Assembly: GCA_002221725.1 (NCBI GenBank)
Contig: NJFT01000096.1
Span: 62,001-126,000 of the forward strand
Length of the DNA: 64,000 bases
Direction: 5' to 3'
DNA from: Scedosporium boydii
Lineage: Eukaryota > Ascomycota > Sordariomycetes > Microascales > Microascaceae
The translations under genes and the position numbers were made by a program. Under the pieces are notes generated by a model. That model had not been told where the DNA came from. It saw only the letters and a list, made by a program, of their open reading frames with translations, and made no database searches. Shown here in pieces: positions 2,373 to 54,714 of this stretch. Positions within the stretch are counted from its first letter, which is position 1; every line of letters starts with the position of its first letter.

Positions 2373-2492
2373 CCAGATCAGGGATGGGAGTGTAAGTCGC
2401 AGGGATTCACAGCTGCCTGGGCGAAAGTGGAAAGTGGCCTTGCTACAGGTAACGAAACGGATAATACATTGTTATTTCGATAGCTACTAGTA

Positions 2493-4342
2493 TCAAACTA
2501 ATATTTGTGACTGGCCGATCCGCTGCATTATGTCTTGCCACCGCTCCGGGGTCGCTTGTCCCTGGGCCACGAGGTCACGGTGCGCCCAAACCTCTTCCAG
2601 GATTTTCTGCCCATTCTTCGTGTTGTGTAATCCCAAGAGGTGAAGGCCCTCCAATTTTGATTGCACGTAATTCCGCTCGTCGACTAAATCCATCTCGGCC
2701 CCGAGCACCACCAAGCACCACCCCAAGTTAGCTCCCGGACCAAGCGCATCGGGAACCATGGTAAGAAGCTCCTGCGCAGTGCCGAGGCTTGATTGCATTT
2801 CCTCGGTAAGGGGTACTTCCGGACCATTAGCAATGCGATATACGTAGATATGGGATGCGTGTCGGAAGATCTCGGCGGTGGCGACGATTCGGCGTCGGAG
2901 CTCCTCTTGGGCCATACCGACGGTGATGAGGGACGGTGCGGTACTCTGACATGAAATGCTGACGAGAGGATTGGAATTGAGGATGATTTCGGTCGACCGA
3001 ATCTGTTTTTGCAAGTCGTCCACCTTCTCCTGAAGCTCTTCCGTCGTCATGTGGCCGTCTCTGGAAGATGCATACAAACGGGACGCAGCCCACTGTACAT
3101 CACTAACGTTAGCACTACCGAGCACGGGACATGCCTCAAAGGCGCGACTGAGGGAGGGGATAGGGCGAGGAGGAGGGTAAGGAGGAGGGCGCCGTTCAAT
3201 ATCATCGGGCATCCTGCTCTGGGACTCACCATCAACTTTAGCAATCTGGATGAGCAACCAAATAGAGCATCTACATAATTCCCTTGACCCGTGGCTTCGT
3301 TTTGCAGGTCCAGCCAAGACTCCAACTCAGGCATCGCTGGTTTGCCCATATTTAGTGAGCTTTGCGTGTCTAGCAGACAGACCCAGGTTTTGATAAAGGG
3401 ATCGAGGTCTGAGCAGTCACCTCGACAGTGAATCCAGCCTCGGATCGCATCGTAGTGCCCCTTCCAACGGTCTGATCCCGAGAATACCTGGATAGAAAGA
3501 TGGGAGTGTTAGTAGACAATTTCAATATCTAAGGGCGTGAGCGAGGAGGGAATGAGGCCATACTTCAAAAGACACTAGCAGCAGCATTGCAGCCAGCGTG
3601 ACCTGGCTGTGGATATGGTCTGGTATCAAGAAGCGATCTCGTAACGCCTTGGAGGCCGCGCGAAGATACTTCCGAGATATGTTATCGGCTGTATGTTGCC
3701 AGCGGCTATGATGAGATGCAGCAACGGCGAGAGCGGCGTTCAATACAGCCGGCTCCCGAAGGGCCATGGGTAGTAGTGAACGATATCCGTTTCCGGTGTA
3801 GTCGACTGCGAGAGCTATCCTCGCGATGTTTTCTAACGAACAGGGGCGTGATAGATGAGCAACCAGTTCTCGGAGACGTTGATGGGGGAGGCTGGTATGG
3901 AAAAACCAAGCATGAAATCAAACCACTTACGAATATAATGTTGCATGAAGAAGCTTTCCTCAGAGGGGAGACCAAGGGCCGACATTTCTCCCGGTAATGC
4001 GACTCCAGTGCCGGACGGGGAGCTTCCATCCGACGATGTCGATTTGCTTCGGCGTCTTGACATCTTCCGTTTCTTCAACCCTTCGATTCCGGCCGGCCAA
4101 TGAAGGCGAAGGCCATATCCACTGCAACGAACACCGACCTGTGTGCATGTTTTGCATTCTAAAATGAATGCAAAAGCAAAAAATATGAAACCAAAGGTCA
4201 GCAACAGCTGTCAATGTTTTGCGGGGATTCGGGATTGCTACGCACGGGGAAGGCCACCATCACACGTCCTCTTTTTGTTCAAGCACGTCCAACAAGATCC
4301 GGTGTCGTTCCGCCGCTCGGCAGGGGGAAGATTCCGTTCCAT
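2493..4342 (-). CDS. Zn2Cys6 fungal transcription factor (483 aa)
   Basis: Five exons (4342-4246, 4158-3931, 3832-3564, 3487-3230, 3092-2493) join in frame to 483 residues. The zinc cluster is split by the first intron: Cys17, Cys20 and Cys27 lie in exon 1 and Cys34, Cys37 and Cys44 in exon 2, giving C-x2-C-x6-C-x6-C-x2-C-x6-C. It is followed by CSGYGLRLHWP and a basic KKRKMSRRRSK stretch. The rest is a helical fungal-specific TF domain (FFMQHYIQNIARIALAV, LPMALREPAVLNAALAVAASH). The coding sequence begins at the ATG 16 codons before Cys17. It is a nuclear DNA-binding regulator of unknown targets, and could control the neighbouring reductase, amine oxidase and P450. All four introns have GT..AG ends; the last one is 137 nt. 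Confidence 0.85.
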
Positions 4343-4996
4343 CTTGGTACCGGGCTCGGTTCGAGATGAGAGCTCTTATTTACAAATATCACAAGAGATT
4401 GTGCATCCGTCAAACAGCTTCCGTGTCATCAGCACTGGTAGGAAAACCCCCCAATTGCCGCAGATGCAAGAGAACCCCAAGAATGCAGGAATGATAGATA
4501 GGAAGGGATGGAGGGGCGCCGGGGGTGCTGGACGCGCTGGGACGTTTTGGTTATCAGTCCTCATTCAGCCATTGTCCATGCACCTGACCACCTTTGACTT
4601 CGCAAGGAGCACACCCACATCCTACCTATATCCCATTTAGGTTTAGCTGGGACTGACAGTGAGATAAGAACTGCGGGGAGCTAACCCAGGAAAGTCCACT
4701 ATCCCTGTTCGGTGGGAGATACGCAGGGGTGGAATGCGGGGTAAAAAGGATTGGCGTATGCATCTACCGAGGGATCCGTGCAGTTGGCTTTCCAAAGATA
4801 AGCGGGAAGTTCCGAACACTGCATGTACGAAGTACTTGTCGTCTATCATGACGATGTATCCGCGGAAAAGATTTAGGGTTAGGGTTACGTAGCAATCGGT
4901 CACATTATCTTTGTTGTACGTACTCTTATTGTCCTATGTTTCGTTCGCCCCAAGAGCTCCCTCACTTCCTAATAACTAGGCAGGATTTCAACATTA
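4343..4996. other. intergenic region upstream of the 483-aa regulator
   Basis: Promoter of the minus-strand regulator and 3' flank of the next gene. It contains an interstitial telomere-like motif, listed separately. No other coding sequence is supported. Confidence 0.5.
4873..4887 (+). repeat. interstitial telomere-type repeat / telobox
   Basis: Two and a half perfect TTAGGG units (TTAGGGTTAGGGTTA). TTAGGG is the telomere repeat of most filamentous ascomycetes. At this length it may be a telobox-type protein-binding site, a relic of break repair, or chance. Confidence 0.6.
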
Positions 4997-7820
4997 CTAC
5001 TTAAACACATCCTGAGGAAATATATCAGGCCAAAGATCTGGTCCACCAACACTTGGCCCTAGACCAAGAAATATAGACATCTCCGAGTTAAATAGTGGAT
5101 CGTCCGCAAAAGCGGGAGGCTGCCCGAGGCCAAAGAGGCTTGAAAAGGTGTCGCCGATGTCAACAGGGATTGAATCTCCGAGCTCATCCGGGCGAGGCTG
5201 GCGCGAGTAGATGCCTTGCAAGTACGTCGCCGGATCTGGCATCTGCCCTGACATGGAAGTGAGAATTGCGCCCGCCATGTGCACTGGTGATTGCGGCTCC
5301 ATCATATTGGTGTCTGTCGTCATCATGGCTGTTCTCTGGGAGTGTTGCTCTTCCGCACTCAAGATTGGGTGTTGCTGGGTTTCTAGGCTCTCTTGAACCA
5401 GTCCTCCCTGCACTGCCGAGACGTTGTCGCTTTCCGCGGCGGTAGATTCCAAGTCCTCGCTTGCGTCAATATCCCCCGAGAGATGGCCAGCATAAGCATG
5501 TAACCATCCCGGGCCATTGCTGGAAGTCTCTTGGCGAATCTGTTCCGTGTTTTCTTTTTCGGGAGGGTTCTGAGGAGACTGGACCGCACGCGATCCATTA
5601 TATCTGTTATCCGCTTCTTCCTCCTCATCTTCATCTGTGGTTTCGGTATCCTTCGGGCCGAGAGGCATGAAGGTTGGCTCCTCAATGTCGACGAACCGAC
5701 TAAAATAACTCCCAAATGCGGCCTCAACACTATCCAGCGGATGTCTCAGTCCCATGTTCGTTTCATGAACTTTAAATAACACGCTCATCTAAAAGAAGAA
5801 TATTGAGTCAGCGATGGAACCCATCAAAGTGAGCTTCATGGTGATCATCATACCCAATCCTCTGCTGGCTTATAAAACGTTTTTAAAGCGCCGAGCACTA
5901 TGAATGCGAGCTTTAGATTTTCCACGATTCCATCATCATATGGTTTTGAGGACCTGTGGAGTCGATTTATAGACACGAAGGCGCTCTGAGCGCATGCGAA
6001 ACCGACCCATATCGCGTGCTATTTATTCTTCGTCAAGTCTTCGTTTTTCGTCCGATTCAACGAGTGGGAGGAATTGGCTTACGGAGTAAAATCCTCCACC
6101 TTTTATCACATCTCGGGTTATTTCACAGATGGCGTCTGCGCTGGATACGCAGCGGTAAACCCTTTCTTTTAAAAACAGTGGTGGCGCTTGGGGAAACTCG
6201 ATACACCTAACAGCCGCTACCTCACCAGTTGGTGGAGGGCGTTCTGGGATAGGTAGGAAAGTTCGATTTAGGGTGATGACGCCGCAGTGCCATACCAAGG
6301 ACGCCATGACACTCCCATCAAAATTCGATTTCGGCGAGTGGTACAGAGGGGGACCACCACCAAATCGAAAGGTATTCGGATGACGTAGTAGGTAATCTTC
6401 TAGCTCACCTTGAAGTTCTCTAAAGCGCGATTGCGGTGCCCAAGGGAGTGGATTCTGCTCGCCAAGGGGCGTGGAACACAGCTGATGGACACATACAAGT
6501 AGCTGGAGAAGTTCTACTAGATGCGAGCAATCTTCGGGGCATGAAGGGCGTGCAGAGTCTAAGCTGGGTTTCTTGGAGAGCCTCTCACAAGATGACCTAA
6601 GGACAGCGTAACCCAGACAATGGGATGTCTTTGCAACGGCCAGATATTCCGCAGCGACGTTTAGGGCCTCGATTTGTTCACCGTCCAGATCACAAGCTGC
6701 CCTAGCTAGTTCAATAAGACTGAATCCTGTCGCTTCTGTATCGTTAGTAAAGAGGCACTGCTCCCCGCGCAAAAGAGAAAAAAAAGAGATGCCAACTCAC
6801 CAATATCCACCCACGCCTGTCGCCCGTGTGCTCTGCTCGCCTCGTAATCCACAAGTATACAAGCTGCGTTGACGTTGTTAACCTGTTTCCAGCTATCGGA
6901 AGACACCTGTATGGAATTCCGAGCTTCACGAGAGATGGAAGCTGCGAGCCGTCTTGTCTTCGGCCCTCGTACGGCCCTGTGGATGGTGAATCTTATGCTC
7001 GAAGCACATATCGCAAGGATCAGGCCACGGGTCATGGTTCCCCGTGCGAGGTACTGGCGGATTTGGGAGGGAGGGAGGAGCAATTTCAAATGTGCGTTCG
7101 AACGGGCACAAAATATCTCCATGAGATGACATACCACAGATATATCAAGTGCGGGAAGCCTGCAATTCTGGTTAGCATAGGGTTGCTTTTTGGGGGATTC
7201 GAGAGGCGTCTTCGTCGTAGTGCTGTCCTACACATGCAAAATGGAGTCTTTCTCATAGAGAAGCTTCTCTAAATAGGGTTTCCAGAGTGACTGATCAGAA
7301 AACTCGTTCACATCATCATCATCATCATCGTCGTCGTTGCCATCATCTCCATCGTCATTGTGGCCCCCTTCCTGCTCTTCGGTATTAACCACTATTTGAT
7401 CGAGCTCGACGATTTTCGGCAAAGTTTGCGGGGACTTGATAGACGCGACCTGGACCTCAACGTCTGAAACTACCCTCTGTGCAGGAGACGGATGTCGAGG
7501 GGCTAGCTGGTGAATTATCCTCGGGGTCTGCTCAGCGGGCTGTCTCGGTCTTGGACCACGCCGGGAGCGATTGTTGTTGTGGAACTCGCATTGTCGCCCA
7601 CTCTCTAAACACAGCGTGCATGGTTGTGTACCGCTGCATTTGACCTTTCGTATTGGTTGACATCGTTAGTAACTTAGTAGTGATCTCTCGTCGCAAAATG
7701 CAGCCAAGGCGTGGGAGATCTGCTTCTCCTGCTTACCCTTCTTTTTCGGCAAGAACCACAGGCTATAGTAACTTTCCTTCTGTAGGGGCCGTGGATAGCT
7801 GGGAAATTGACGTCCGCCAT
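4997..7820 (-). CDS. Zn2Cys6 fungal transcription factor (810 aa)
   Basis: Six exons (7820-7737, 7644-7232, 7159-6801, 6735-6083, 5985-5854, 5788-4997) join in frame to 810 residues. The zinc cluster has Cys21, Cys24, Cys31, Cys37, Cys40 and Cys47 and is again split by intron 1, after CRKRR. An acidic run of about seven Asp encoded by a GAT/GAC microsatellite (7308-7338) follows in the linker. The middle homology region includes LLLPPSQIRQYLARG and MTRGLILAICASSIRF. The C-terminal third is acidic and low in complexity (TTDEDEEEEAD) and may be an activation domain. It is divergent from the amine oxidase gene, a common layout for a pathway-specific activator and its target. The 5986 acceptor was chosen because it alone keeps the frame; an AG two bases further on would break it. 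Confidence 0.82.
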
Positions 7821-44615: not shown

Positions 44616-47600
44616 TTATTCCCGCTGCGTGTTGCTTGATGCTCTTTCTTCGGTAGTGTCTGCGACGGCCTTTCTCGTAGCCACCAGCTCCTTGACGGTG
44701 CTTTTCAATGGTACAACAAGTTCCCATTTATCGGTGCCGACCTGACGAATGACGTTAACGGCAGCGCTTGAGGCCCACTCAGTCAGGGCCTCATCGTGGT
44801 CTCCACCGGGGGTAGCGCGTGGTTCACCGGGATTGTCGAGATGCCTTGCCACATGCTCCATGCGGTCATCCCACGCGTTAGGGCCGCTAAACTCACTTGT
44901 GCAGCCTTCCGCAGGGCACCGCATATATTGAGGCATGGCACACCTCCTGCGCTGTGCCCTCTCCTGCATCTGCCGGAGAACTGCATCCCACTCCGGGCTC
45001 TTATTATGAGCATACTCGTCCGGAGTATGCATTCGCCTAACATGTTGGGTGTAGAGATCCTTGCGGTTGAATATAGCTCCTCCAGACTCCGGATTAGCCT
45101 GAAAGCATACAGGGTCCGTGCAAATCCAATAATTAAGAACAACATGTTGTGAAATTGCATGGCGCTTCCACTCGTTCTTACTAATGAAAGTTGCGGTGCA
45201 GCCTGCAAAGGCGAAGACACAGATGAAAGGCCTTGAATGGATCCGTTGGATGTGATCCTGGAGATCACTGTGAGTTCTAAAAGACTCTGTACAGGTCCCG
45301 CAATGTAATTGTCTAGAGAGACTCGAGGCTGCTCGCCGAGGCTTTCGTCCTGCTTGGGATCGCCAAGGCTTTCGTCCTGCTTGGGACCTCTGTGAAGCAG
45401 GATGGAACTCTGAGGTAGTGGAACCATCTTTGGCACCTAATGGTGCGAAGGTGATACTGTCGGCAATGTTGTCAAAGCCAGATAGATAGTTAAGAAGAGA
45501 GAAAACGTTCGGCTCATCATCTTCAATCTGGTCCTGACCTGGAGACGCGATCGTGTGAGAGACAGGATCCTCTGACGGCTGAGATGCTCCAGTTGGTACA
45601 GTCCTCGTACCGGAGTTATCATCTAGGGGCTCCCCATCTTCCGGTGATTGAGGCTGACAAAGCTCATCGGTATCGATGGTTGAGGGAGGTCCTTTCTCAA
45701 CGCGACAAGAGTCGTCTGACTCTTCAGCGAAATATTCGCTCCTCACAAAAGGACGGGCAAGCAGCGTGGGGTTTGTCTCGACGTGTATAAACCTTGGCTT
45801 GTGGCTCTCATCTGCCACTGGCTCGTCCATACCGTTGAGCCATTTAAAAACACTCTGGTCAAGCTCCGGATGTCTCTTAGACTCTATAGTGTCACCTAAT
45901 TCTGCCCAAGGTAACGCTCTAAGGGAAAAGTCATGAATGCAGTCTCCAATATGTTCAAGCCGGCTTCCTGCATCCAAGAGGCGCCATTCTGTCTGAAACG
46001 GACAACCGAGTGGGCATGATGGTATTAGCGGAGGCGCGATTCTGCAACCCAACTCCTGAAGAGCGGGAATTTGCTCTTGGGTAATTGTCTTCGGATGGTG
46101 TGTTTTAATATGGACGGCGAGGTCTTCGGCACTCGGAAAGGCGCCACCATTTTCCGTCCCTACACAGGACAAGCACTCCCAATATTGGGTTCCACCGTGC
46201 TTATCATTGATGTGGCTTTTCCAACTCTGCCTCGTAGGGTATAGCATGCTTCCTTCTGCACAATCACGGAATGGGCATGTATATGGGCATAGATCCTCAG
46301 AGATGTGTTTTCTGTAACTGTTAGCATGACGTACTAAAGATCCAGGGGAATGGGTCAGATGTACCTCCATCGAGCCTTCTCTGTGAACATCTTTGGCAAC
46401 GTCTGACAGCAGCAAGGGCACTTGAAACCTCTGGCATCCACTGGAACCGGGGGTGGCAATGGATAGTTCAACTTCACTGTAGTTACGGAAGCCTGGCTTG
46501 CAGCCTGCGAAGGTGTCGGTACTGTTGCTAGAGTGTCTTCCTCAATTGCGGAAGCCGCGGTGGTCGCCGCCTTGTGAGAGCGGCCGGCACTTTTGATGAC
46601 GGCAAGTTTCTCTTCGCTTGCAGACGGATGATTCTGATTCTGTCCCACTGTTGCCTGAGAACGGCCGTGACCAGCGGCCCATTCAGTCTCTTGTGCAATT
46701 CCGATATGTAGAGCCTCTTCCAGCTTCTTTTGATGGAGTTCTGCGTACACGAATCGATGGCGACGCCGAAGGTTGGCTATGACAAGATGTCTCTGCTCAG
46801 AGCTCAGTTGGGTGTAGCTCGAATTAACGTCTAGATTTCTCATATGAGCATCCAGACACGCTTGACCTTGTCGCTCGCCAGAGACGACGAGCAAAACCAA
46901 AGAGAGGTATCGCTGGAGATCTTCGTAGCTACTTTGGTTAAATGAGGTGTCAGCCCTCTGGAGCCTTGACATTGTTCCGGCTTTCCGAATACGATGACCT
47001 AACCAGATCAGCTCATCCAGTATCTCTTCTGTGGATTTTATGGCCTTGCCTAGAAGCGAAGACACGTTATTGTCTGTTTCTTCATTGTATTCCGAAACGG
47101 AGGACTCTTCCTCCGTCGATTCGCCATCTAATGCGTCAAACCAGGCGGTTGCAGTTTCTGATGGGAGACGTCTATCCTGGTTCGACCATGAGCTTGCAAC
47201 TTTTTCTCCATTTAGTTCCACAACAAGCTCGCCACGCTCACTTCTGAGGCCTACGAAATACGTAAGTAAAGAATGCTATAGCTATGGCCGAGGCAATTCT
47301 TGCAACCCCGACTCAAGAGACTAACCAAGCCTCAAGATCAGGGGAAACAGCCAACGTAATCCTGATGATAACTCACCTACGTCTTTGCATCGCTCGATAA
47401 ACTTCCTGAGAGTGACTAAAAGGCCCGCTATAACTATTCGCGTTTGGGGTTGGAAGTGCAGCCTCCAGTCCAAAGACGCCCGTGTTCTTGCGGACGCTCC
47501 AACGCCCGCAGCCCAGAGTTTGAAGTCGCCAAGCCGGTTTTCAGCCCATCCGCCCTCCATCAAAGGAGTGATGGATTGACACTCCTCTAGGCTTCGACGG

Positions 47601-48202: not shown

Positions 48203-51200
48203 ATGGCTTCCAGCATAGATTGCGCGGAGTTGTCGGAGCTCGCCCATAACTCGGCTACGCAGGTAGCTGCCGTTGCAGCTCAACTAGGAATAAAGGAAGC
48301 AAGATCGTTGTCGCCAAATTCCCCGAAAATGAAATTGGCTAAGGACCTCGTGACCCTAGCCGGTCATCTCTTACGCGGTTCCTTTGCCTTCGGGTCTGAG
48401 GTTCAGGGCCATGCTGCTACAAATACCACGAAGTTCCTAGAAGGACTGGAGCTATTGTGCACAGTAAGTTCACGCACTTTCTCATAGCGAACCCACGGCT
48501 TGAGGGGCGGGACTGATCTGATTATAGTGGCCAGAAGGAAATCCGTGTCTCCGGAGCGGGAGCATATCAATCCGGTTCCCCATGGTCTACGCCATTGGGT
48601 CAAAAACTCTTGAACAACTATCAGATGACGGTCTTCGAGATAGGCTGGAAAGCAGCCTAAAAGTATTTATATTCACAGGCAACCGTAGGCACAAACGTCG
48701 CTACTTCTCGTTTCTAGAAACCTTTACATCTTTCGAAGGCCAGCCATGGGACGATGAACAAGCAACCAAGGCGTATCTCGCCAGCCGATCCACAAAAGAC
48801 GTTGACACCCCAGATGACTATCCATTCCACGTCCGTGAAACGTTCTGGAAAGTGTTGAAGCGCTACTCGCAGTGCGGTTGCACTGGCCCTGTACAGTCGC
48901 AGGTCTCATCAAACCGACATGATGGCAGGTTGAGGCTGATGGAAAAGTTCGAGAGTAACGATGAGGATGTCATTTTCGATACGGTCTTCTCTAGAACTCC
49001 GGGCGTTGGACCGGAGAATGATGTTGAATGGCAGCATCTGCAATTTCACATTTCTAGGTATCCTCTCCGTCCTTGCAAGTTTCTGTTTGGTTTAATTGCT
49101 GACACAGGCGTCTCTCAAAGAAAACAGCAGCGTTTAGGAAAAGTGGGATTTGCTCTCCCCGAAGCGCAGTCTCATCAGTCAATGAACCTTTCCTTAAATA
49201 TCCCGTGCGCGGCAACGATCAAGTCCGCTACCCAGTTCTGCCAAATCCTCCAAAAACGGATCGGCCCCGTCAAAATATGCCTAAAGGTCCGAGACTCTAA
49301 GTTGGAACAGATGCGTGATCTCAAAGCAGTGGATGACGATATTGCTCACGAGCAAAGCGTTTCGCTCGCAGATGTGCTTGAACGCCGCTTCCTAGCAGCC
49401 AAAGAGAAGCTGCTACTCGCCTACATTCTTACAAGGTCATTTTGGCAGTTTTACGACTCGGAATGGATGAGTAGCCAGTGGACCACCGAGGCTGTCCATT
49501 TTTTCTGGCGGTGCCCTGACGAAAGCGATTCGAAGCACGATAGTAGCTACTGTTTACTCAAAAGGAGTCCGTACTTTACCTTGACTCTCCAGAAAGGTCA
49601 TTCACTACTCGCGGCAGAACATCTTCCCACAGAAGAGGTAATCCACCGCTATCCTCGAGTTCTTTCGTTGGGTATTATGCTGCTCGAAATTGGGCAGGGT
49701 AAAGGGCATGGGAAAGCCGCAGAATATATTAGTACTCAGGGAATGACTTTCGAGGCGAAGATCAACAACTTCGTTCACGACATAACGAAGACATTGCATA
49801 AGAAGACCTGGCCCTGTTTTGACTTGCAAGAGGAGGTGCGACAAGCATACAGATTCATTGTCCGTAATTGCTCGGACTCGAAGCTTTTCGAAGCGAACTT
49901 AAAGGAATCCTCGTCACAGAATAACGGGGTGCTCACTGTCGAGGAAAGGCGTGCTATCCTCTACAAGGCCATCGTTTATCCCTTGAAAGAGCTACTACAG
50001 AAGTTAGGATGGCTTGACAAGTCTGGTAATATACAGAACAAGGATTACGACGAAGACGACAAAATGGACATTGATAACAAAAGCGATATCTCCGAAGACT
50101 CCCCAAGGCCGGCCGCCTGTCTCAACGCTGCAAAAGATTCCAGCTTATCGCAATCACGGTTCGTATTTCCAGCTATTTCAAGCTCCAAATCGTCAGACTG
50201 ACTTGCATTGACTGGCCAATACAGGCTCGAAGCGGAGAGGTGGTTACTTAGGCTCCAGACGTCAGAAGTCACCAAATGCCTTGTCGATCGATTCTTACAG
50301 GATCCGCCTCTTAAAAGAATTCGGATTGCAATCCTTGATACGGGATACGACCCAGATGTGGCTTTCTTCAGAAATAAGGACCGAAGGCGTCGTATCAAGG
50401 AATGGAAAGACTTTTCATCCCACGACCTAATACGTCAGGACGAGGATGGACACGGGACGCATGTCTTGTCCCTCCTGATGAGAGTGGTCCCCACCGCGGA
50501 CTTTTATGTTGCCAGGATAGCATGCGGCACGAGGGATCTTCCCGATTCAACCGCAAACGTCGCTGAGGTGGATAACAGCCCCGTATAGCCTTTCGAAGAT
50601 AGGTGTTTCTCTTCTGTTCACTAACTTGTTCATTAGGCAATCACTTGGGCTACGAAAGAACATGAAGTCGATATAATATCTATGTCATTTGGATTTGAAA
50701 GAGAATGCTGTATTGGAGGCAATCGGGTGATTAGCAACGCTATCTCCGAGGCACTGAAAACTCGAAACCAGCATCTCCTGCTCTTCGCGGCCGCGGCAAA
50801 CCAAGGAGGTAACCAACCGGAGATGTTTCCAGCCAACCATCCACAAGTTATTTCAGTACGAGGGACCGATGATAAGGGATGGCTTCAGCGCTTCAATCCT
50901 CCGAGAGGCTACGTGAGCTTTGATTGTATTATGACGCTTGGCCAGGACGTCCCTGGAGCTGGACTAAGCAAGGACGGTGGGGCGGAAGTCGCTAGGTCCG
51001 GAACTTCGGTAAGCACACCAATAGCCGCTGGAATCGCCGCGATGACGCTTGGCTATGCTCGTATTTACCAAAGGGAACTGAGTGAACTTCTCGGTCAAGA
51101 ATTTGGGGGCGTGAGCTCTGAACTATGCACCGTCACGGTAATGCGTACAATGCTAAGGACGATGTCGACGGAAATGTTACATTCTGACAGGTGGTATTAC

Positions 51201-51278
51201 TTGTCTGGCGATGAATTTATAAGGCAGACTCACCAGATGAGGTTGAGTATGATTGCACAAGCTATTTCGCGGAGGTAG
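48203..51278 (+). CDS. DUF7580 - subtilisin-like serine protease (S8) fusion, HET-Q2-like
   Basis: Four exons (48203-48463, 48528-50158, 50225-50567, 50637-51278) give 958 residues. Residues 1-90 are helical. About 150-600 resemble the fungal DUF7580 region (YPRVLSLGIMLLEIGQGKG near 480 and a C-terminal helical part), ending in an acidic linker. The S8 domain (about 640-958) has an intact catalytic set: Asp669 in IAILDTGYDP, His707 in DGHGTHV, Asn800 in AAAANQGGN and Ser869 in SGTSVSTP. There is no signal peptide and no inhibitor_I9 propeptide, so it should be intracellular. No NACHT/NB-ARC or repeat domain is present, unlike NLR-type proteases. It is tail-to-tail with a gasdermin-like gene, as het-Q2 is near het-Q1 in Podospora. 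The donor of intron 3 could instead be 50583, adding five residues. Confidence 0.82.
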
Positions 51279-51409
51279 CTGTGATACCGATGATGGGTTA
51301 GAAATTGATCCGCATCATTGAAAGTTATAGAAATATACATCTTCGTGTAATAAGACCTAGGTCTATGTGTAGCCCTTCTTCCCGTCGCCCTGGTCTACCA
51401 ATATATTAT

Positions 51410-52240
51410 TTACTCCTCCCTGAACGCGACGCAGGCACATAAGCCACTTCCATCCAGCGCATGCGACACTTCAATAGGCATCTCGTCATCGAAGGAACGG
51501 AGATCCGCCTCTGTCGCAGTATGGACACTCACCCGCTCATCCCCAGCCCCACCGGTACCATCATGTTCATTCAAGAAAGCGGCCTTGGTTTTATACACGC
51601 CGATATCGACATCAATGTCCCGCCATCCTTTGCAGGTGATGACGTGGAGCTGATAGGCGAAAACAATGTCCCGATCAGAGCGATAGGATTGCCGGGTATT
51701 GCTCGTACTGCTGGCAGAGATATCAGAGCCAAAGCTGAGGGCCCAGGAGGCTGGACACCCAAAAGTAGTATTTGTGGACGATCTCGACATGTTCCCGCTT
51801 TCAAGTCGGAATCCTCTGGCCACTTTCAGTCCTGTAATCATGTAGACGGGCCTCTTTCCAAATATGCCCGAGTTCATGGCAGCCTGGACTTTCTCGTTCT
51901 TGATCCGTTCGGCCGCTTCTTCGTCCGTTGGCTGCTTTTTGAAGTAGATGGTCTCAAGGCGATCAATGGCATACTTGTCCAGCAAGCCACCACCAACTTC
52001 GCCGCCAATCTTCTCCCTGGCCATCGCGAGAAATTTGGCCCAGACGGTACCTTGGAGCGAATGGCTTTTCTCATCGCAGAATTCGACATCGTAATCGAAA
52101 TGGGCCTCTGTGAGCGGGAAAGAGCTGCTTAGAGGTTTAGTTGGATCACTGGGGTCTTGGATGATGTCGCCCATGCAAATCGACGTATTGGGATGGTACG
52201 TGAAGTTTGGAGCCAAGATGTAGGTTTTGATAGGCGCCAT
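51410..52240 (-). CDS. gasdermin-like protein (HET-Q1/RCD-1 type), putative pore-forming cell-death effector
   Basis: A single exon of 276 residues, the size of fungal gasdermins, with no signal peptide or hydrophobic helix. Visible features are an N-terminal beta-rich part with MGDIIQDPSDPTKPLS (23-38), a helical middle (about 66-122), the strand PVYMITGLKVARGF (131-144), a low-complexity Ser/Thr loop (150-186), and the strand IVFAYQLHVI (192-201) followed by GVYKTKAAF (214-222). A Gly-rich hinge (226-233) then separates a C-terminal tail of about 43 residues. In fungal gasdermins a subtilisin- or caspase-like protease removes about 5 kDa from the C-terminus and frees the pore-forming part; the hinge sits where such a cut would be expected. 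Its tail-to-tail neighbour, 131 bp away, is a subtilisin-like protease. The family call rests on layout, size and context rather than a database match. Confidence 0.66.
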   Translation of the reverse strand: MAPIKTYILAPNFTYHPNTSICMGDIIQDPSDPTKPLSSSFPLTEAHFDYDVEFCDEKSHSLQGTVWAKFLAMAREKIGGEVGGGLLDKYAIDRLETIYFKKQPTDEEAAERIKNEKVQAAMNSGIFGKRPVYMITGLKVARGFRLESGNMSRSSTNTTFGCPASWALSFGSDISASSTSNTRQSYRSDRDIVFAYQLHVITCKGWRDIDVDIGVYKTKAAFLNEHDGTGGAGDERVSVHTATEADLRSFDDEMPIEVSHALDGSGLCACVAFREE

Positions 52241-53299: not shown

Positions 53300-54148
53300 C
53301 TAATTGAATACAACCGTCTTCGTCTCGTTGAGGAATACACGCCTCTGGGCATACCACCCAACCGCCGCAGCGAGAACCTGGCTCTCGATATTCGAGCCCT
53401 CCCTGGTCAACTCGACCGGTCCCATACTGTGGTCGACCCTAACGACCCTCTGCTCAATGATCGGACCCTCGTCGAGATCAGCGGTGACAAAGTGCGCAGT
53501 GGCGCCGATAATCTTGACACCGCGCTCGTAGGCCTGGTGATAGGGCTTGGCTCCCTTGAAAGACGGAAGGAAGCTGTGGTGGATGTTGATGATACGTCCG
53601 GACATGGCCTGGCAGAGCGTCGGTGAGAGGACCTGCATGTACCGGGCGAGGATGACGAGCTCGATGCCGTACTCCTTGATAAGCTCCAGCACGCGGCCTT
53701 CCTGCTGCGCCTTGGTGTCCTTGGTCACGGGCAGGTGCTGGAAGGGGATGCCGTAGCTCTTAGCTAGCGGCTCGAATTCGGGGTGGTTGGACACGATGAG
53801 GCAGATATCAATGGGGAGCTGGCCAGCCTTGGCGCGGAAGAGGAGATCGTTGAGGCAGTGGCCGATCTTGGACACCATGATAAGCACACGTGTCTTTTGC
53901 GCCGCCGTGCGAATGTCGTACGTCATTTGGAGATCATCGACCAGCGCGTCAAATGGCGCGCGCAGTTCCTCCACGGGCAGGTCGGTAGGGCCGAAGTGCA
54001 CGCGCATGAAGAATCGGTTCGAGGTAGGGTCACTGAATTGGCGAAGATCCAGGATGTTGACCCCTCGCGAGGAGAGCACGCCGGTGATGGCGTGGACGAT
54101 GCCGGGCTTGTCCGGGCAGGACAGCGTGAGAATGTAATCGACAGCCAT
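53300..54148 (-). CDS. purU: formyltetrahydrofolate deformylase
   Basis: A single exon of 282 residues from the ATG at 54148 (MAVDYILTL). An N-terminal ACT domain (about 5-80, SCPDKPGIVHAITG) precedes a formyl-transferase domain (about 88-282) with KIGHCLNDLLF. The catalytic Asn-His pair lies in RIINIHHSFLPSFKGAKPYHQA and the Asp in TADLDEGPIIEQ. The enzyme hydrolyses 10-formyltetrahydrofolate to tetrahydrofolate and formate, balancing one-carbon pools. In bacteria the ACT domain senses methionine and glycine. There is no targeting sequence, so it should be cytosolic. PurU-type proteins are patchy in fungi, and the intron-free gene invites a check for bacterial origin, though codon use looks like its neighbours. 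Confidence 0.93.
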   Translation of the reverse strand: MAVDYILTLSCPDKPGIVHAITGVLSSRGVNILDLRQFSDPTSNRFFMRVHFGPTDLPVEELRAPFDALVDDLQMTYDIRTAAQKTRVLIMVSKIGHCLNDLLFRAKAGQLPIDICLIVSNHPEFEPLAKSYGIPFQHLPVTKDTKAQQEGRVLELIKEYGIELVILARYMQVLSPTLCQAMSGRIINIHHSFLPSFKGAKPYHQAYERGVKIIGATAHFVTADLDEGPIIEQRVVRVDHSMGPVELTREGSNIESQVLAAAVGWYAQRRVFLNETKTVVFN

Positions 54149-54714
54149 GGTGTTTTTGGCGATGATAATTTTTGTGTTGAACAATTATCAGGTCGAATTG
54201 GAAGGTTGGGGATCGTTGACTCCCCTGGCAAAGTGTGAGAGATGGTGTTGAGTCACACGTTTTGAGTGGACAATTCGTCATGCATATATTAACTTTTTTT
54301 GACTGGGATTTCTGATTTCTTCATGGCGGGGTTCAAAACATCAAATTGTTGTGGTCACAATCGCAGGGGTCAAGGTGGGATCAATGTGGGGTCCTTGCCC
54401 TGTTCAATCGTCTCTGGGACACTCTGTCCCGCCCGTCGGTTCTCTCCGATCTTCGGCAGATTCCACCTGCCCCGTTGATTGCATCACCACTTTTGATGTG
54501 GCCGATGTTCATGTTGTCTGTCTCCTAACGACAGGACACCGGAAGCCAAGTTCAAAAGTAGCAAGCAACCAAGCTTTCATTTTCTTTTTGAACATATTAT
54601 AATAAACCCCGCATAAAATCCGGTAATAATTCTAGAATTATTTAATAGTTTTGGAGGAACTTGAAGTAAAACACCGAGATAGACCTTCAGCTTGGGAATG
54701 GCGAAGCAAGCAAC
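54149..54714. other. intergenic region
   Basis: About 570 bp. It contains the deformylase promoter, and no other feature could be supported. Confidence 0.5.

Follow-up and report, generated by a model that had tools for sequence, protein, structure and literature searches.

A gasdermin gene and a DUF7580-subtilisin protease gene paired tail-to-tail in Scedosporium boydii: a probable protease-gated cell-death module

In a stretch of 64,000 nucleotides from Scedosporium boydii (assembly GCA_002221725.1, contig NJFT01000096.1, positions 62,001 to 126,000 of the forward strand; hereafter the window, whose numbering is used unless another contig is named), a gene for a fungal gasdermin lies tail-to-tail with a gene for a subtilisin-like (S8) protease that also carries a DUF7580 domain. 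The facing stop codons are separated by 131 base pairs (bp; 51279-51409), as a preliminary description of this DNA, made from its letters, had noted. We consider it very probable that the two genes form a protease-gated module for lytic cell death. The same description had proposed a gasdermin-plus-protease module, and this is supported by the predicted fold, by profile searches and by the recurrence of the pair; a putative role in non-self recognition or defence, which it also proposed, is one that we infer.

The two genes

The gasdermin gene (51410-52240, minus strand) is a single, intron-free open reading frame (ORF) of 276 residues, as originally described. A profile of 71 family sequences, compared with solved structures, matched RCD-1-1 (E 4e-17), RCD-1-2 (E 4.1e-13) and the HET-Q1 pore (E 1.5e-6). 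The predicted structure has the gasdermin N-domain fold, and RCD-1 is the top match in structure comparisons of the Foldseek/VIA type. The strand layout that had been read as gasdermin-like is therefore borne out by both prediction and profile search, and the fold is not an unrelated one. Residues 3-226 of the model are covered by at least one fifth of the VIA rows. The pore-forming domain can be placed at residues 1-223 (51572-52240, minus strand), with a conserved [FLMY]222-L223 at its end. Judged by family profile and modelled fold, the protein is a fungal gasdermin. The Pfam gasdermin model is blind to it: the PF04598 hidden Markov model gave no match above cut-off in this protein or in the whole genome, in a search with no RCD-1 control, and PF04598 is absent from the 25 of 29 Pfam families listed for the 71 sequences.

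The protease gene (48203-51278, plus strand) encodes 958 residues in four exons according to our re-spliced model. Exon 1 (48203-48463) begins with the ATG at 48203 and encodes the N-terminal part. Exon 2 (48528-50158) is an open frame encoding a helical region and the DUF7580 domain. The S8 domain is divided between exon 3 (50225-50567), with Asp669 and His707, and exon 4 (50637-51278; Peptidase_S8, E 8.1e-7), with Asn800 and Ser869 and then the C-terminus. The introns required are 48464-48527 (GT-AG), 50159-50224 and 50568-50636. The donor of the third, and with it the end of exon 3, was placed by homology, 15 bp upstream of the first model, because relatives run from an NVAE/NIAE-like sequence straight into AI-WA. 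The four residues named occupy complete subtilisin motifs and align to subtilisins, in agreement with the earlier claim that all catalytic residues are intact. With a profile of 59 protease-family sequences, intracellular subtilisins were the top matches (7xr8, E 5.2e-37), and inspection by eye revealed no signal peptide. Pfam identifies DUF7580 and Peptidase_S8 in the protease exons and no family in the 276-residue protein.

Recurrence of the pair

A second gasdermin gene occurs in the same genome on another contig (C89). Its product, of 281 residues, is 29-32% identical to the first, and the gene is again tail-to-tail with a DUF7580-S8 gene, 72 bp away (C89:94000-103000, local 2476-5841). 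A whole-genome Pfam search, whose counts are lower bounds, located DUF7580 at no fewer than 13 places (at least 14 matches) and S8 at no fewer than 19 (at least 26 matches), and the two together only at the two gasdermin loci. Three different gasdermin queries of the genome returned only these two genes and one short, weak match on a third contig (C90:84279-84365; E 0.002), which covers 29 residues and is 59% identical to the gasdermin of the C89 type. The surrounding DNA showed no intact gasdermin gene, and the match is probably a relic. The second DUF7580-S8 protein has a long Ser/Thr-rich stretch between its domains, while that of the window protein is shorter and acidic.

To follow the pair in other fungi, 120 of 128 protease relatives, from 7992 candidates scored, were listed together with 89 gasdermin relatives. 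At least 14 of the latter, all among the 33 that are database-named, share a contig with a listed protease relative; this is an indirect call, made from the identical size of the contigs holding both proteins and not from the DNA of the records. Several pairs have consecutive locus tags (CEP51_011411/011412, CEP53_012504/012505, QBC43DRAFT_306850/306849 and Asppvi_010197/010196). Thirteen of the 14 protease partners combine DUF7580 with S8 and one, that with the Asppvi tags, combines ankyrin repeats with S8. In this case, from Aspergillus pseudoviridinutans, the ankyrin-S8 protease (P0125) has a same-clade gasdermin (P0053) as its neighbour, so that the union of gasdermin and S8 appears to have been kept and the sensor part exchanged.

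In three of the 120 listed relatives (P0097 of Fusarium austroafricanum, P0121 of Trichoglossum hirsutum and P0141 of Cudoniella acicularis) the gasdermin follows the protease within the same gene model, and that of P0097 continues for about 200 residues beyond the gasdermin. These may be true fusions or neighbouring genes merged by annotation. Since they are contiguous on one strand, the tail-to-tail layout is not universal. The pairing of gasdermin and protease is beyond chance, because it recurs both in this genome, as the second pair, and in others, as same-contig pairs and shared gene models. Relatives that were never near proteases, the outcome that the preliminary description had named as damaging, are not what was found.

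Proposed mechanism and alternatives

We propose that the gasdermin is synthesised in an inactive precursor form, kept off by its last 33-54 residues. The subtilisin would itself remain off until its N-terminal part, consisting of the helical region and the kinase-like DUF7580 as a putative sensor, meets a cue. Once activated, it would cut the gasdermin at some point from about residue 222 to about residue 243, and pores formed in the plasma membrane by the N-terminal fragment would then kill the cell or hyphal compartment.

The presumed cleavage zone consists of F222-L223 and a variable linker (residues 224-243; 51512-51571, minus strand), delimited by model confidence and column composition. 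The predicted local distance difference test (pLDDT) score falls below 50 at residues 223-239. It rises to 71-89 in the conserved tail that follows (residues 244-276; 51413-51511, minus strand), a candidate autoinhibitory piece modelled as a helix and a beta hairpin with C268 and C270. In the 71-sequence alignment, column 222 contains F (51), L (15), M (4) or Y (1) and column 223 contains Leu in 68 of 71, after which the linker is rich in Glu and Asp in the relatives and Gly-rich only in the window protein. The Cys-x-Cys near the C-terminus is widespread, with C268 in 46 of 67 and C270 in 56 of 71 sequences. HET-Q1 of Podospora anserina sheds about 5 kDa, probably by a cut at F238 (PMC12881547, PMC10989679). 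Computed masses for the window protein are 5.7 kDa for residues 223-276 and 4.7 kDa for residues 234-276. The profile alignment pairs position 205 with HET-Q1 chain position 211, if chain numbering equals protein numbering. Transferred in this way, the HET-Q1 cut falls in the linker, and the cut in the window protein could therefore be at F222-L223 or within the linker.

A number of observations weigh against the proposed mechanism or qualify the first description of it. The 276-residue sequence used singly gives no significant match to solved structures (RCD-1-1, E 0.083), so that the case for a gasdermin depends on family profile and fold. The transferred F238 cut lies about 10 residues past F222, where the window protein has no Phe. 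The Gly-rich hinge before a tail of about 43 residues, singled out in the preliminary description, is present as residues 228-233 followed by residues 234-276 (43 residues), but it is peculiar to the window sequence and not a family feature; residues 228 and 229 are an insertion, present in two and one of the 71 sequences, respectively. Among the matches listed, 19 of the 33 named gasdermin relatives are without a same-contig protease, and for relatives of the second gasdermin the number sharing a contig with a listed protease relative is 0 of 17. In a comparison of 16 paired proteases, the catalytic Asp and Asn never vary, but two of the 14 partners (P0093 and P0105) have a gap at the catalytic Ser, and P0105 also has Asn in the His column; these two are either bad gene models or decayed partners. 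Finally, the divergence of the partners is correlated over 16 pairs (r 0.81 for gasdermin and S8, 0.72 for gasdermin and the N-terminal part; 0 of 5000 permutations each), a result confounded by the species tree, as species history alone could produce it.

The closest solved relative by profile and fold, RCD-1 of Neurospora crassa, is also an objection, since it acts without cleavage and is controlled by co-existing alleles and not by proteolysis (PMC12881547). The window gasdermin might likewise form pores when two antagonistic alleles meet after hyphal fusion, the protease being unrelated or a modifier. We regard this as very unlikely: the window gene, unlike RCD-1, still encodes, beyond a disordered linker, a C-terminal tail that is conserved, and it has an adjacent protease, a partner that recurs even inside single gene models. 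A working protease-gasdermin switch serving controlled release, secretion or development has a small but real chance of being correct, and one that overlaps with that of the cell-death module, as the mechanism is the same and only the role differs. Secretion has been singled out as a setting where the part played by clusters of this type deserves study (PMC12881547), whereas the known fungal cases, HET-Q1/HET-Q2 and RCD-1, concern allorecognition cell death (PMC12881547, PMC10989679).

It is highly improbable that the two genes are in decay and have lost their function. The probable C90 relic of the second gasdermin type suggests that genes of this kind may degenerate here, but both window genes have open frames, the catalytic motifs are complete and the introns keep the frame. 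That a lone gasdermin-like gene lies beside an unrelated protease by chance has next to no probability: S8 genes are abundant in this genome, as counted above, yet a second, diverged pair has the same layout, and the same-contig pairs and shared gene models of other fungi would all have to be accounted for.

DUF7580, known systems and neighbouring genes

The DUF7580 domain (PF24476; 48831-50000, plus strand; residues 102-491 of the exon-2 translation) is matched with E 3.5e-22 in the exons and 3.6e-22 in the exon-2 translation. The AlphaFold2 (AF2) model of the exon-2 product has a pLDDT of 79 and a predicted template modelling score of 0.76. In structure searches for the domain, all 50 Foldseek and all 50 VIA rows listed were kinases or pseudokinases. 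The modelled domain thus looks kinase-like. It is probably inactive: at the equivalents of the catalytic loop and DFG motif in 45 sequences, placed by judgement and not by superposition, there is no conserved Asp, the commonest being that at position 312, which 24 of the 45 have. Possibly, though with somewhat less than even confidence, DUF7580 is a degenerate kinase fold serving as a pseudokinase-like sensor after a helical bundle and gating the subtilisin that fires the gasdermin, a necroptosis-style (MLKL/RIPK-like) sensor joined to a pyroptosis-style effector. If so, what such a domain senses to unleash a fungal pore-former becomes a testable question. DUF7580 is not, as had been supposed, a special replacement of the usual sensor. 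Its combination with S8 is a common architecture, annotated in 104 of the 120 relatives that were listed for the protease (precomputed Pfam columns, in a list biased by the query), and it is likely to be a kinase-like control module of gasdermin-linked proteases.

Two-gene gasdermin death switches have been recorded before; the one part for which descriptions are fewer is the kinase-like sensor. The window pair resembles HET-Q1/HET-Q2 in gasdermin length (278 residues in HET-Q1, 276 here), in its S8 protease partner (PMC10989679), in the short C-terminal gasdermin tail and in the match of its family profile to the HET-Q1 pore chain. It differs in that HET-Q2 has 388 residues (PMC10989679) compared with 958 here, including an N-terminal helical and DUF7580 part, and in that HET-Q1/HET-Q2 is a proven allorecognition system whereas such a role is putative here. 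About 80% of fungal gasdermin genes are near protease genes and about 63% near S8 proteases (PMC10197012). Gasdermin-Q2-like (Q2L) clusters, with the pair within 10 kb and S8 in a multidomain protein (PMC10197012, PMC12881547), show no difference in kind, the N-terminal module of the window protein being DUF7580. The protease has two properties of the Q2-like type, complete S8 catalytic motifs and gasdermin adjacency beyond chance. Predicted kinase-like domains fused to Q2L-type proteases have already been mentioned (PMC12881547). Bacterial gasdermin operons share the fold (8sl0, 9a84, 7n50 and 7n51 are among the structure matches) and have reported protease neighbours (PMC12881547, PMC10989679), but their gasdermins are distant in sequence (7n50, E 0.01 by family profile). 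With the present locus the fungal set of gasdermin-protease modules gains a well-supported member, and the C89 pair brings another from this genome.

Upstream of the protease gene and divergent from it, minus-strand ORFs at 44616-47221 have weak C2H2 zinc-finger matches, all below Pfam cut-offs. On the other side of the pair, positions 53300-54184 encode ACT and formyl transferase domains, the combination seen in formyltetrahydrofolate deformylases.
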